From contig JAOTXT010000015.1 of assembly GCA_029862205.1 (NCBI GenBank), positions 1-64,000 of the forward strand: 64,000 nucleotides of DNA, given 5' to 3'. The translations under genes were made by a program, and so were the position numbers. The notes beneath the pieces are model-generated. The model did no database searches. It was not told the DNA's origin and was given only the letters and a program-made list of their open reading frames with translations. This DNA comes from Paracoccaceae bacterium (GTDB lineage Bacteria > Pseudomonadota > Alphaproteobacteria > Rhodobacterales > Rhodobacteraceae). Shown one piece after another: positions 16,053 through 52,801 of this stretch; within the stretch, counting starts at the first letter, position 1, and every line of letters begins with the position of its first letter.

Positions 16053-16547
16053 GTGCGCACAGGGCTTTACCCGGGGACCTTCGACCCGGTGACGCGGGGG
16101 CATACGGACATCATCAACCGGGCCTCGAAGCTGGTCGACCGCCTGGTCATCGGCGTCGCGATCAACCGTGACAAGGGGCCGCTGTTCGAGCTTGATCAGC
16201 GGGTCTCGCTGATCGAGGGGGAATGCGCCGGGATCGCCGCCGCGACGGGCATGGAGATCGAGGTGCGCCCGTTCGACAACCTGCTGGTAAATTTCGCCGA
16301 GGAAGTGGGCGCCAGCGTGATCATCCGCGGCCTGCGCGCGGTTGCCGATTTCGAGTACGAGTTCCAGATGGTCGGCATGAACCGGGCATTGAACGAGAAT
16401 ATCGAAATGGCGTTCCTGATGGCCGGCGCCAAGCACCAGGCGATCGCCTCGAAGTTGGTCAAGGAGATCGCGCGGCTGGGCGGCGATGTCTCGAAATTCG
16501 TCTCACCAGCCGTGGAAGCGGCGCTGAAGGCGCGGTTTGGGAAGTAG
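16053..16547 (+). CDS. coaD: Phosphopantetheine adenylyltransferase
   Basis: A 164-residue enzyme that makes dephospho-CoA from 4'-phosphopantetheine and ATP, the penultimate step of coenzyme A synthesis. The nucleotidyltransferase motif is GTFDPVTRGHTDII (the T/HxGH motif near residues 10-18), and IIRGLRAVADFEYEFQM is diagnostic of CoaD. It starts with GTG, with GAGGAGGAG six bases upstream. A 96-base inverted repeat begins 12 bases after the stop. Confidence 0.97.
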   Translation: MRTGLYPGTFDPVTRGHTDIINRASKLVDRLVIGVAINRDKGPLFELDQRVSLIEGECAGIAAATGMEIEVRPFDNLLVNFAEEVGASVIIRGLRAVADFEYEFQMVGMNRALNENIEMAFLMAGAKHQAIASKLVKEIARLGGDVSKFVSPAVEAALKARFGK

Positions 16548-16558
16548 GTTTTTTCCGC

Positions 16559-16654
16559 CCGCCTCCCTCGCCCCCACCTCCCCACCCGACCACCAATTGT
16601 GCACCAATGGATATGATTGGTGGTCGGGTGGGGAGGTGGGGGCGAGGGAGGCGG
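16559..16654. repeat. Long inverted repeat, copy 1 (39-bp perfect arms)
   Basis: Left arm 16559-16597, loop 16598-16615, right arm 16616-16654. The arms are perfectly complementary over 39 bases. The left arm is C-rich (starts CCGCCTCCCTCG), and the right arm is G-rich with four runs of three or more G separated by 1-4 bases. Starts 12 bases after coaD. Two further copies are at 50680 and 52537. Confidence 0.95.
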
Positions 16655-16731: not shown

Positions 16732-17313
16732 ATGTTCAGAACGATCTGCCTTGCGGCGGCCCTGCTGTTCTCTCTCCCCAACCCGGAGGCCCTGGCCGTG
16801 GAAATCAAAGACCCCGAGAATACCCTTGTGATCGAGCTGCAATCTGGCGAGGTCGTCATCCAAATGCTGCCCGACGTGGCGCCGAAACATGTGGAGCGCA
16901 TCAAGCAGCTGACCCGCGAGGGCGAATACGATAGCGTCGCCTTTCACCGGGTGATCGACGGCTTCATGGCCCAGACCGGCGACGTGGAATTCGCCGATAC
17001 GACGGATAATTTCCAGCCCGGCCGTGCCGGCACCGGCGGTTCGAAATACCCGGATATCGCGTCCGAGTTCTCGTCGCTGCCCTTCGACCGCGGGGTCGCG
17101 GGCATGGCGCGCTCCCAGGACCCGAACTCGGCCAATAGCCAGTTCTTCATCATGTTCGAGGAAGGCCATTTCCTGAACAACCAATACACCGTCTGGGGCC
17201 GGGTGATCTCGGGCATGGAGCATGTGGACAACATCAAGCGCGGAGCCCAGGGCTCGGGCGCGGTGACCGATCCCGACCATATGATCCGGGTGCGGGTCGC
17301 GGCGGATCAGTAG
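16732..17313 (+). CDS. Periplasmic cyclophilin-type peptidyl-prolyl isomerase
   Basis: A 193-residue cyclophilin with a Sec signal peptide (MFRTICLAAALLFSLPNPEALA). The fold is intact: VAFHRVIDGFMAQTGD near residue 73, GVAGMARSQDPNSANSQFFIM, and the NQYTVWGRVISGM strand. The catalytic Arg is in FHRVI, while the Trp of human cyclophilin A is replaced, as is usual in bacterial forms. It would speed proline isomerisation of exported proteins. It follows coaD after a long inverted repeat, so expression may be separate or attenuated. Confidence 0.93.
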   Translation: MFRTICLAAALLFSLPNPEALAVEIKDPENTLVIELQSGEVVIQMLPDVAPKHVERIKQLTREGEYDSVAFHRVIDGFMAQTGDVEFADTTDNFQPGRAGTGGSKYPDIASEFSSLPFDRGVAGMARSQDPNSANSQFFIMFEEGHFLNNQYTVWGRVISGMEHVDNIKRGAQGSGAVTDPDHMIRVRVAADQ

Positions 17314-23313: not shown

Positions 23314-23390
23314 GGTAGGGTGGGGTTTCACCCCACCATTCGACGGTTATCGGATGTCGTTGCGAGGGTGGGTTGGAAACCCACCCTACC
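23314..23390. repeat. Double-hairpin GGTAGGGTGGG repeat, copy 2
   Basis: Outer 11-base arms GGTAGGGTGGG/CCCACCCTACC enclose two hairpins, GGTGGGGT-TTC-ACCCCACC and GGGTGGGTT-containing. It sits between the convergent lpdA and ftsH genes. Confidence 0.85.
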
Positions 23391-50039: not shown

Positions 50040-50672
50040 ATGCTCGATACGACCGAAGTGACCATCCCGAAATGGCGCATCCAGGGCGAGTTGATCCTGA
50101 ACTGCAATTGCACGGTCTTCTGTCCCTGCGTCGTCAGCCTCGGCAACCATCCGCCCACCGAGGGCAGCTGCAAGGCGTGGCTGGGTGTCCGAATCGACAA
50201 AGGCAAGTGGGGCAAGATCGACCTCTCGGGCTTGAACGTCGCCATGATGATCGACATTCCCGGCATGATGGGCGAAGGCGATTGGAAGGCGGCGGGTTAT
50301 TTCGACGACCGTGCCGACAATGCGCAATTCGAGGGGCTGGAACGCATCTTCACCGGCGCGGCGCGGGGCACGACCGGCCTCTTCAAGCTGCTGGTCAGCA
50401 CCTATTTCGGCTCGTCGCGCGAGGCGGTCAGCTTCACCACCGATGGCAATGCGCGCACTCTGACCGTGGGGCGCAAGATCACCGGCACCGTCGTCCCAAT
50501 AGAAGGCGGCGACGAGGGTCGCGACTTGGTGGTCACCAACACCAAATACTGGATGGGTCCGGACATAACGGTCGCCCAGGCGGTCAAGGGCAAAGTGCGC
50601 GATTTCGGCCGGGTCTGGAACCTGGACGGCCGGTCAGCCGAGATCTGCCAAATCGATTGGCGGGGGCCATGA
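50040..50672 (+). CDS. DUF1326 cysteine-motif protein
   Basis: A 210-residue soluble protein with no signal peptide. It begins with a beta segment and then NCNCTVFCPCVVS carrying Cys22, Cys24, Cys28 and Cys30, plus Cys44 in EGSCKAW; this dense motif is the mark of DUF1326 and looks like a metal or Fe-S site. The rest (DIPGMMGEGDWKAAGYFDDRAD, DGNARTLTVGRKITGTV) is beta-rich. It is the partner of DUF2182 in this unit. Start ATG at 50040 with GAGGGG upstream. A long inverted repeat starts eight bases after its stop. Confidence 0.9.
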   Translation: MLDTTEVTIPKWRIQGELILNCNCTVFCPCVVSLGNHPPTEGSCKAWLGVRIDKGKWGKIDLSGLNVAMMIDIPGMMGEGDWKAAGYFDDRADNAQFEGLERIFTGAARGTTGLFKLLVSTYFGSSREAVSFTTDGNARTLTVGRKITGTVVPIEGGDEGRDLVVTNTKYWMGPDITVAQAVKGKVRDFGRVWNLDGRSAEICQIDWRGP

Positions 50673-50679
50673 TTTGATT

Positions 50680-50773
50680 CCGCCTCCCACGCCCCCGCCT
50701 CCCCGCCCAACCACCGATGGTGCTCCGAGGGAAGATCGGTGGTTGGGCGGGGAGGCGGGGGCGTGGGAGGTGG
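50680..50773. repeat. Long inverted repeat, copy 2 (39-bp arms, one mismatch)
   Basis: Left arm 50680-50718, loop 50719-50734, right arm 50735-50773; the only unpaired arm base is the third from the outside. It differs from copy 1 at several arm positions, with matching changes in both arms. It begins eight bases after the DUF1326 stop and ends 16 bases before the next gene. Confidence 0.95.
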
Positions 50774-50789
50774 ACATAAGGAAAACCAC

Positions 50790-51392
50790 ATGACCGGCAA
50801 ACTGTTCCGCTGGCTGGGCCACAATCAGGGACCGCCGTTGGACCCGATGCAAAGCTGGCGGCACCATTGCTGGAAGGCGGCGAAGAAGAAGCTGTTCAAG
50901 CCCCTGCCGCTGGAAGTGGTGCGCCGCCGGGTTGCGCGCGCCACGGCACTGGGGCTGACCTATCACCGTTACGAACAGCTCGTGCTAGGCGGCGGCGAGA
51001 TCAAGGCGATGTTGTTCGCCGGCGATACTCTCATCGTCACCGCGCCCTATGCCGCCAGGGCCGAGTTGCTCGATCAGGCCGCAATCCGCAAGTTGGCGGA
51101 GGTCAGTGGCTGCCGCCGCCTGCTGCTGACAGGGCAGCAGGGAACGCAGGAGATCTGGGCCAGGAATCCGGCAAGCGATCTGATCGAGGCGGCAATCCGG
51201 GTGCCTGCCGCCGATCCGCTGGCCGCGCCACCTCACCGGCCCGACCGGGTGGCGCTGATCGCGGGGCTGAGGGACTGCGCCCTGCCCGCGGGCTCGGTCG
51301 CGCTGGTTGGCAATGGTGCCCATGGGCCGGCCTGGGTTGCTGGCGCGAGGCTGGCCGGCTTCGTGCCCGGCGCCGAATTCTTCGGCGCCTAA
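50790..51392 (+). CDS. Protein of unknown function
   Basis: A 200-residue protein that I do not recognise. It starts MTGKLFRWLGHNQGPPL; the N-terminal 45 residues are basic and Trp-rich (SWRHHCWKAAKKKLFKPL). They are followed by a helix VVRRRVARATALGLTYHRYEQLVLGGGEIKAMLF, quoted in part, and then an alpha/beta region with LIVTAPYAARAELLDQA, RRLLLTGQQ and VALVGNGAHGPAWVAGARLAGFVPG. The last part hints at a nucleotide-type loop but no Walker motif is complete. AAGGA lies eight bases before the ATG, just after the long inverted repeat. A 120-base gap separates it from prs. Confidence 0.75.
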   Translation: MTGKLFRWLGHNQGPPLDPMQSWRHHCWKAAKKKLFKPLPLEVVRRRVARATALGLTYHRYEQLVLGGGEIKAMLFAGDTLIVTAPYAARAELLDQAAIRKLAEVSGCRRLLLTGQQGTQEIWARNPASDLIEAAIRVPAADPLAAPPHRPDRVALIAGLRDCALPAGSVALVGNGAHGPAWVAGARLAGFVPGAEFFGA

Positions 51393-51512: not shown

Positions 51513-52529
51513 ATGAAGATCGACGAAACCGCGCAAATGATCGCGGGCAATTCCAACCGTCCCTTGGCCGAAGCGATCGCGCGCCGCATGTCGGTCTATC
51601 GCGGCGACCGGACCAAGCTGGCGGATGCCAGGGTCGAGCGCTTCAACGACAAGGAAATCTTCGTCGAGATCTTCGATAATGTGCGCGGGCAGGATGTCTT
51701 CATAATTCAGTCCACCTCGCACCCCGCGAACGACAACCTGATGGAAATGCTGATCATGACCGATGCGCTGAAGCGCGCCTCGGCCAAACGGATCACCGCC
51801 GTGATGCCCTATTTCGGCTATGCCAGACAGGACCGGAAAAGCGCTGCGCGCACTCCGATCTCGGCCAAGCTGGTGGCGAACCTGATCACCACGGCGGGCG
51901 TCGACCGGGTCCTGACCATGGATCTGCACGCGGGCCAGATTCAGGGCTTCTTCGATATTCCGACCGACAACCTCTACGCCGCGCCGGTCTTCGCTCTGGA
52001 TCTGAAACACCACATGAACGGCCGCGACGACCTGACCGTGGTCTCGCCCGATGTGGGCGGCGTTGTGCGCGCTCGGGATCTGGCCAAGCGGCTGGGCGCT
52101 GGTCTGGCGATCGTCGACAAGCGGCGCTCGCGTCCGGGCGAGGTGGATCAGATGACCGTGATCGGCGAGGTCAAGGGACGCACCTGCGTCATGGTCGATG
52201 ACATCTGCGACACGGCGGGCACCCTTTGCAAGGCAGCCGAACTCCTGAAGGAGGAGGGGGCCACCGAGGTCCATGCCTATATCAGCCACGGGGTCTTGTC
52301 GGGCCCGGCGATCGAGCGGGTGAGTTCGTCGGTGCTGAAGCAGCTGGTGATCACCGACTCGATCGAGCCGACACCCGAGGTCAGGGCGGCGAGCAATATC
52401 CGGGTCGTGTCGATCGCGCCGCTGTTCGCGCAAGCGGTCTTGAATGTGGGCAATGACACCTCGGTCTCGTCGCTTTTCCACGAGGAAACACTGGGGCCAA
52501 TCTACGAGGCGTTCTACCGATTTGATTAG
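51513..52529 (+). CDS. prs: Ribose-phosphate pyrophosphokinase
   Basis: A 338-residue class I PRPP synthetase. It has the family landmarks [49 protein letters not shown] and [18 protein letters not shown], and the PRPP loop [12 protein letters not shown] near residue 229. It makes PRPP for nucleotide, His and Trp synthesis. A long inverted repeat begins eight bases after its stop. Confidence 0.97.
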
Positions 52530-52536
52530 TTCGCGT

Positions 52537-52630
52537 CCGCCTCCCTCGCGCCCACCTCCCCGCCCAACCACCGATACTATACTGAGGGATTATCGGTGGT
52601 TGGGCGGGGAGGTGGGCGCGAGGGAGGCGG
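52537..52630. repeat. Long inverted repeat, copy 3 (40-bp perfect arms)
   Basis: Left arm 52537-52576, loop 52577-52590, right arm 52591-52630, perfectly paired. It mixes bases of copies 1 and 2 and has a private C-to-G change balanced in the other arm. It begins eight bases after prs. Confidence 0.95.
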
Positions 52631-52801
52631 AAGTATAAAACTACTATCGAATCCAGCCTTGCCCGGAATCAGGGCTTCCACTATACAGCGCCGAGTTTTC
52701 CAATAGCCCGATGCGCGCGCGGACTCGCTCGACCCGGCGAAGCATCGGATCACTTGAGGCGCGGCACATGTGCCGCAAAGAACCCCATGGGGAGCCGCTG
52801 G

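Follow-up and report, generated by a model that had tools for sequence, protein, structure and literature searches.

Dispersed alphaproteobacterial hairpins with matched arms and invertible loops: probable exchange of sequence between paired arms

Several systems described earlier come close to the hairpins treated here. In the excerpt of PMC3733652, GTAG and CGTC REP sequences and BIMEs were described as intergenic dispersed palindromes with complementary variation in the stem; most REP stems were 6-9 bp, reaching 12-13 bp in the longest GTAG family, and the CGTC families predominated in Alphaproteobacteria. In yeast, template switching between the arms of inverted repeats led to arm homogenisation and to spacer inversion at the same locus, and the authors noted that template switching in bacteria had favoured transversions (the available part of PMC8604942). 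The idea that template switching is able to create and to keep RNA hairpins has already been published (PMC8794818, in extract). The intrastrand-triplex repeats of E. coli, as presented in a section of PMC4666352, were dispersed G/C-rich foldbacks that were always intergenic. Finally, intrinsic terminators are stem-loops found just past stop codons.

The window analyzed here was a stretch of 64,000 nucleotides of a Paracoccaceae bacterium (GCA_029862205.1, contig JAOTXT010000015.1), in which a first-pass annotation had noticed three long inverted repeats with covarying arms. All three were recovered. Copy 1 (16559-16654) consisted of the arms 16559-16597 and 16616-16654, with 39/39 bases paired, and an 18-nt loop (16598-16615), and it was located between a cytidylyltransferase-like gene (16089-16547, probably coaD) and a cyclophilin gene (16732-17313). 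Copy 2 (50679-50774) had the arms 50679-50718 and 50735-50774, with 39/40 pairs, a 16-nt loop (50719-50734), and a DUF1326 gene (50040-50672) and an ORF with no Pfam match (50790-51392) as neighbours. Copy 3 (52536-52631) had the arms 52536-52576 and 52591-52631, with 41/41 pairs, a 14-nt loop (52577-52590), and was flanked by the genes of ribose-phosphate pyrophosphokinase (51513-52529) and ribosomal protein L31 (52802-53023). The genes flanking the three hairpins were ordinary.

The six variable arm positions listed by the annotation (T/A/T, C/C/G, A/G/A, A/G/G, G/A/A and A/G/G) were all correct, and each was compensated in the opposite arm. A single broken pair had been claimed among about 118; the recount gave one in 120 for the three copies, a G-T near the outer end of the copy at 50679. 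The distance from the stop codon, stated as 8-12 bases, was measured by our own gene calls as 11, 6 and 6 nt. When inverted repeats of the window were listed with arms of at least 20 nt and copies at most 200 apart, the other 11 had arms of 20-32 nt and a complementarity of 71-88%. The predicted folding energy was approximately −100 kcal/mol for each window copy (z from −12.9 to −16.4), and none of 200 shuffled sequences was as stable.

The hairpins could then be set beside the described systems. They were rightly called longer and more perfect than REP or BIME units, the window elements being 96 bp with arms of 39-41 bp where REP units have stems of about 6-13 bp in elements of 20-40 bp, and in the window's genome the stem was mostly 34-46 bp and the loop 14-21 nt. 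The three window hairpins had neither a GTAG nor a CGTC tag next to the stem, and none was conserved in an alignment of 16 copies. REPs and BIMEs are associated with RAYT/TnpA-REP proteins, whereas the Y1 transposase family PF01797 was absent from the window's genome; the remark that no transposase was near holds in this sense only, as the absence of PF01797 from the whole genome. The family shared arm homogenisation and same-locus spacer inversion with the yeast repeats; those, however, were scattered short inverted repeats within genes, with arms of 7-16 bp in the part of PMC8604942 available, and the cases in the PMC8794818 extract were RNA genes, whereas the present hairpins are dispersed, bacterial and long-armed, so that many copies report on the process. 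The E. coli triplex repeats differed in consisting of a 37-nt motif with three short tracts and in the extraordinary identity of their 23 copies, and because these copies are so identical they offered no comparable paired variation in the section of PMC4666352 concerned. Unlike intrinsic terminators, the hairpins had a stem several times longer and no U-tract in 17/18 flanks. No family of Rfam 15 was matched at the hairpins at the gathering score in seven sources (110,438 bases), where the only hits were two tRNAs elsewhere in L011, and no published description of the family was found in the literature searched.

The genome-wide search with a covariance model, as proposed in the annotation, was performed with a model built from 16 copies of the window's genome (G000). 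It returned 40 rows corresponding to 20 places found on both strands, not three; the weak places C149, C83 and C142:37364 were omitted from the arm statistics. The annotation had left room for the three copies being the only ones or for other copies having decayed, and the copies found were mostly undecayed. The element was a dispersed palindrome of about 90-100 bp, in G000 mostly with two arms of 34-46 bp and a loop of 14-21 nt. The question of its presence in relatives received a divided answer: the congener G003 carried 41 paired copies, and other Alphaproteobacteria were positive as well, but the congeners G001, G002 and G004 gave no match with either the covariance model or a sequence-only arm model. 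Matches were obtained in 4/61 genomes, own genome included (G000, G003 and, from the same class, G037 and G043), and in 14/289 genomes of the class, again with the own genome, under stricter filters by which weak matches were lost.

A DNA pattern of the inner arm was also found in 96 stretches of GTDB contigs. Alphaproteobacterial names (Sphingomonadales, Hyphomicrobiales, Rhodospirillales and others) were carried by 65 of them, 27 belonged to bin B13T1L10, which is the congener G003 labelled only Proteobacteria, and the remainder comprised two Eggerthellaceae records, whose 12-bp arms were within predicted genes, a SAR324 record and one with no label beyond bacterium. These stretches were parsed as 80 + 16. 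After exclusion of the G003 bin, 56 loci with 57 copies from the set of 80 entered the counts of context and mismatches, which retain two probable chance matches (L109 and L181) and the contig-end case L165. Other lineages had different cores (CCCGACCACC, CCCGGCCACC) that were also well paired.

The agreement of the two arms was measured within each copy and against shuffled partners. Own arms in the 17 copies of G000 differed by 20 edits over their inner 34 nt, compared with a mean of 95.7 and a minimum of 56 among 10,000 shuffles; all 17 5' arms were distinct, and the own partner was strictly the closest in 14. The 41 copies of G003 gave 31 edits against a shuffled mean of 156.5 (minimum 114), with 31 distinct 5' arm haplotypes and the own partner strictly closest in 15 copies and closest or tied in 31. 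For the 39 copies of G159 that were used, of 41 pattern matches, the inner 26 nt differed by 55 edits against 140.0 (minimum 110), the own partner being strictly closest in 12/39 and closest or tied in 23/39. The corresponding values for the 36 copies of G263, several of which were interrupted in one arm, were 94 edits against 173.0 (minimum 123), 15/36 and 22/36. A one-arm, sequence-only model was used so that copies were not picked by their pairing. By hand count, its 32 arm matches in G000 formed 15 pairs with 2 left unpaired at the threshold, and its 87 matches in G003 formed 41 pairs with 5 solitary arms.

In the 16-copy alignment of G000, 97.2% of cells were paired and 13/40 pairs had changed on both sides, and neither value was reached in 500 shuffles. 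Further pair types numbered 24 where 20.6 were expected, a value reached in 16/500 shuffles; sliding the partner as a control left 44-55% of cells paired. Some of the compensated differences had no route through G-U, such as C-G to G-C or U-A, A-U and G-C at one site, and length differences between subfamilies occurred in both arms of a copy. Compensated transversions and transitions stood at 420:332 in G003, 298:116 in G159, 396:130 in G263 and 48:116 in G000, counted pairwise over few variable columns so that shared events are inflated, and in G159 and G263 over 23/39 and 25/36 copies, from which length-shifted and imperfect copies were omitted. At variable sites of perfect copies, all four combinations were present pairwise among columns −24, −19 and −11 of G003 and at one site pair of G000, which would be a sign of reassortment between copies. 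In L088 and L199, the two arms of one copy came from different family types. Imperfect copies were also encountered: the damaged copy L012 had lost its outer 5' arm (10 edits), and several copies of G159 and G263 had an insertion in one arm only.

The loops of the three window copies had been described as unrelated. This was incorrect for the family, in which loop types recurred, and the loop of the copy at 16559 resembled its type only when it was reverse-complemented. Most G003 hairpins were embedded in a mosaic of about 190 bp, in which a module with a short hairpin of its own stood to the left and another to the right. Relative to these modules, 19 loops had one orientation and 15 the other (7/41 could not be scored), and five loop sequences were found in both orientations. 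It was also observed that the right-hand unit of G003 was repeated three times in tandem at L069:313 to about 440, and that its right-hand stem also varied in both arms. A GGRTAY-like loop motif was detected in 37/39 copies of G159, 31/36 of G263, 21/32 of seven further genomes and 23/57 of other GTDB loci, and was scarcer in G003 (12/41) and G000 (2/17); the numbers expected in shuffled loops were 1.0, 0.9, 0.7, 1.3, 1.6 and 0.5, respectively, and 1/150 flanks contained it.

Occupied orthologous sites from two genus pairs allowed loop orientation to be compared at the same locus, and 4 of the 10 loops were inverted, 5 were the same and 1 was marginal. Among the nine sites shared by G159 and G263, the loops were clearly inverted at L224/L266, L239/L261 and L246/L282, the same at L221/L258, L225/L286, L253/L283, L255/L275 and a second L224/L266 site, and marginal at L227/L268. 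At the first L224/L266 site, the loop was inverted and the arms differed by one pair, G-C in one genome and T-A in the other, in both arms; the adjoining 60-nt flanks matched in 57/60 and 52/62 columns. One-sided rather than paired changes were recorded at L225/L286, L255/L275 and the second L224/L266 site, the last having the same loop orientation and a core that was not exact in G263. At L323/L326 (G230 and G323), both 30-nt arms were identical and the 14-nt loop was the exact reverse complement, when the 300-nt flanks matched in 252/300 and 258/302 columns (~84-85%). The 60 unchanged arm bases against a flank divergence of about 15% could reflect constraint on the arms. A flank match at L229/L290 (one side, 70%) and short repeats to L282, L266, L261 and L290 were left unscored, and no orthologous sites were present among the 7 and 11 loci compared between G118 and G233.

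Based on these comparisons, we proposed that the arms within a copy repeatedly overwrite one another at the DNA level, most likely by template switching, and that the stems thereby stay matched as the copies diverge. A probability of about 0.78 was assigned to this reading, which was drawn from sequence comparison. The nascent strand at a replication fork would switch template from arm to arm and back, and each switch would write the sequence of one arm, length changes included, into the other and so restore pairing. A switch spanning the loop would leave the loop inverted. New variants, arising from a change in one arm or from recombination with another copy, would be either erased or copied into both arms. 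Arm homogenisation was deduced here from comparison of copies, and spacer inversion was seen at 4/10 orthologous sites; the two together have been published as the signature of template switching, and the process fits the hairpin family. The first-pass annotation had left two readings, stem selection or the spread and conversion of hairpin units. Conversion was upheld, in the specific form of exchange within one copy, which is favoured because loops invert in place, and selection on an RNA stem gained no positive support. The proposal does not account for the spread of copies between sites.

The position of the hairpins relative to genes was evaluated by gene calls from a simple codon-usage script, some of which are surely wrong. 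Out of the 17 copies of G000, one fell within a gene call that may be wrong, one was between divergent genes and 15 faced the 3' end of a gene. Placement close to stop codons was real in this genome: 14 of the 15 scorable copies were 2-22 nt past a stop codon, the exception being the damaged copy L012 at 45 nt, and the median of all 15 was 8 nt. All 11 copies between co-directional genes were nearer to the upstream gene (combined p 0.0066), as were 18/24 in other genomes (p 7.5e-5); for the module-flanked hairpins of G003 the number was 15/21 (p 0.50). In three convergent gaps, a copy was 2-8 nt away from the stop codon on either side. The placement makes a role at mRNA 3' ends plausible, and a barrier to 3' exonucleases during decay would be our guess for it. 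An intrinsic terminator was considered and rejected, because a U-tract (at least six T in 10 nt) was present in only 1/18 sense-strand 3' flanks of G000.

The same placement is what selection for an RNA hairpin at mRNA 3' ends would lead one to expect, with broken pairs removed or compensated singly and the hairpin protecting the upstream message or ending transcription. The 14/15 copies within 25 nt of a stop codon, the preference for the upstream gene in G000 and elsewhere, the convergent gaps and the folding energies near −100 kcal/mol are all in its favour. If such selection acted alone, G-U should exceed A-C among the mismatches in transcript sense, but co-directional copies had 13 G-U and 10 A-C (p 0.68), plus 15 others. 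Stem mismatches amounted to 38/2791 pairs in co-directional, 17/1363 in convergent and 16/748 in divergent contexts, absolute rates that are underestimates because stems were delimited by their own pairing, and the divergent context differed little from the other two combined (16/748 against 55/4154, p 0.095). As G-U was not favoured over A-C and the stems between divergent genes were nearly as good, the pairing does not require RNA selection. Loop inversion, length changes with compensation and many transversion pairs would not be expected from such selection either, and the U-tract was lacking in all but 1/18 flanks; as the cause of the matched stems it was judged quite unlikely. The suggestion that the invertible hairpins flip their loops often enough to be a heritable two-state switch, with the loop and its GGRTAY-like motif read by a protein or RNA at mRNA 3' ends, its orientation altering expression of the neighbour and the matched stems being a by-product, appears very doubtful.

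Bacterial homologous recombination begins near the length of these arms (27-41 bp). Recombination of the RecA type between the arms, or their processing as a cruciform, could accordingly flip the loop and convert the arms with no template switch at replication, and its products would be the same. An 11-21 nt spacer is probably sterically poor for duplex arms, and for this reason inversion over it counts against recombination, which we considered unlikely; template switching needs no added assumption to invert a spacer of this length, and in yeast it has been documented with short arms (in the available part of PMC8604942). We infer that replicational template switching, rather than RecA-type recombination, was the route of exchange. 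Alternatively, the copies could be young and derived by recent spread from several perfect masters, among which the compensated variation is old, with no exchange within a copy. The existence of subfamilies agrees with this, as does absence from G001, G002 and G004, which implies fast gain or loss. The many private arm haplotypes (5' arms distinct in 17/17 copies of G000 and 31/41 of G003), the sites in all four combinations (three site pairs in G003, one in G000) and the mixed-type arms of L088 and L199 do not agree with it. It is already strained by the orthologous sites, where copies shared by two species within flanks ~76-90% identical show paired changes and inverted loops, and we regarded it as highly improbable. 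Misassembly and parallel insertion would be the chief sources of a false signal of inversion. Several of the genomes were fragmented or metagenome assemblies, and misassembly of a repeat of 70-100 bp is an unlikely but conceivable source of inverted loops; with a symmetric element, two independent insertions in opposite directions into the same site would look like an inversion.

When compensatory changes are seen in a stem, they are commonly read as a sign of RNA selection. The present family points to copying between the arms, beside RNA selection, as a way in which pairing can stay perfect. Paired base changes, paired length changes and loop inversions occurred together in many natural copies, a combination from which covariation can come by arm copying, and calls of structured RNAs made on covariation alone should be treated with corresponding caution. 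The hairpins may also be used in bacteria to learn how often, and by what rules, templates are switched at long hairpins.

Two further candidates were examined. A G-quadruplex as the shared cause of stalling was rejected, the canonical motif in 3' arms not being general across genomes (16/17 copies in G000, 41/41 in G003, 9/39 in G159 and 5/36 in G263). RAYT-driven mobility was likewise dismissed as a requirement. In the 28 genomes searched, PF01797 was absent from the positive genomes G000, G064, G118, G220, G233 and G323, though it was present in seven others (G003, G037, G043, G159, G223, G230 and G315) and also in G048, which gave no hairpin match. In the comparison with empty sites for target duplications, the congeners were too diverged for an exact match. 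The coaD-cyclophilin gap contained a hairpin in G000 and in G003, but not the same version of it, and the prs-rpmE gap of G003 contained a tandem repeat in place of the hairpin.

Some REP look-alikes were noticed by eye. GTAG-type ones (GTAGGGTGGG-like) were seen at 23314-23390 of the window and at L016:1279-1344, L016:2190-2260 and L086:4110-4173, in the window's genome and the congener, and CGTC-type ones (CCGTCATTCCCGC-like) in G003 at L087:2594-2664, L088:2224-2292 and L092:1718-1786. The right-hand module beside the G003 hairpins, which has CGTC after its stem, may be a REP of the CGTC type.

Family members were also present in the viral-collection contigs L300, L303 and L306, of which L300 and L303 were the same element in the part seen; phages may be carriers, or the contigs may be misassigned. 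A SAR324-labelled bin (L175) contained an element of the G003 type together with the beginning of the flanking module, by misbinning or transfer. The hairpin at L165:1-283 had perfect arms of 136 bp reaching the contig start, as a fold-back assembly artefact or a real extension of the palindrome. In L249, L264 (1194), L265, L270, L271, L278 and L283, an arm was interrupted directly after GGTGGTTGG, and in L265 both arms were; the insert was short and often palindromic (CCAA.GTCGAC.TTGG-like) and is possibly an element targeting the hairpin arm. Several hairpins of the MAGs OFTM307 and Dive96 (L122, L131, L132, L134, L151, L167, L190 and L198) had arms of 42-59 bp, next to others of 26-39 bp, and the outer parts of the long arms were strongly different between copies and perfectly paired.
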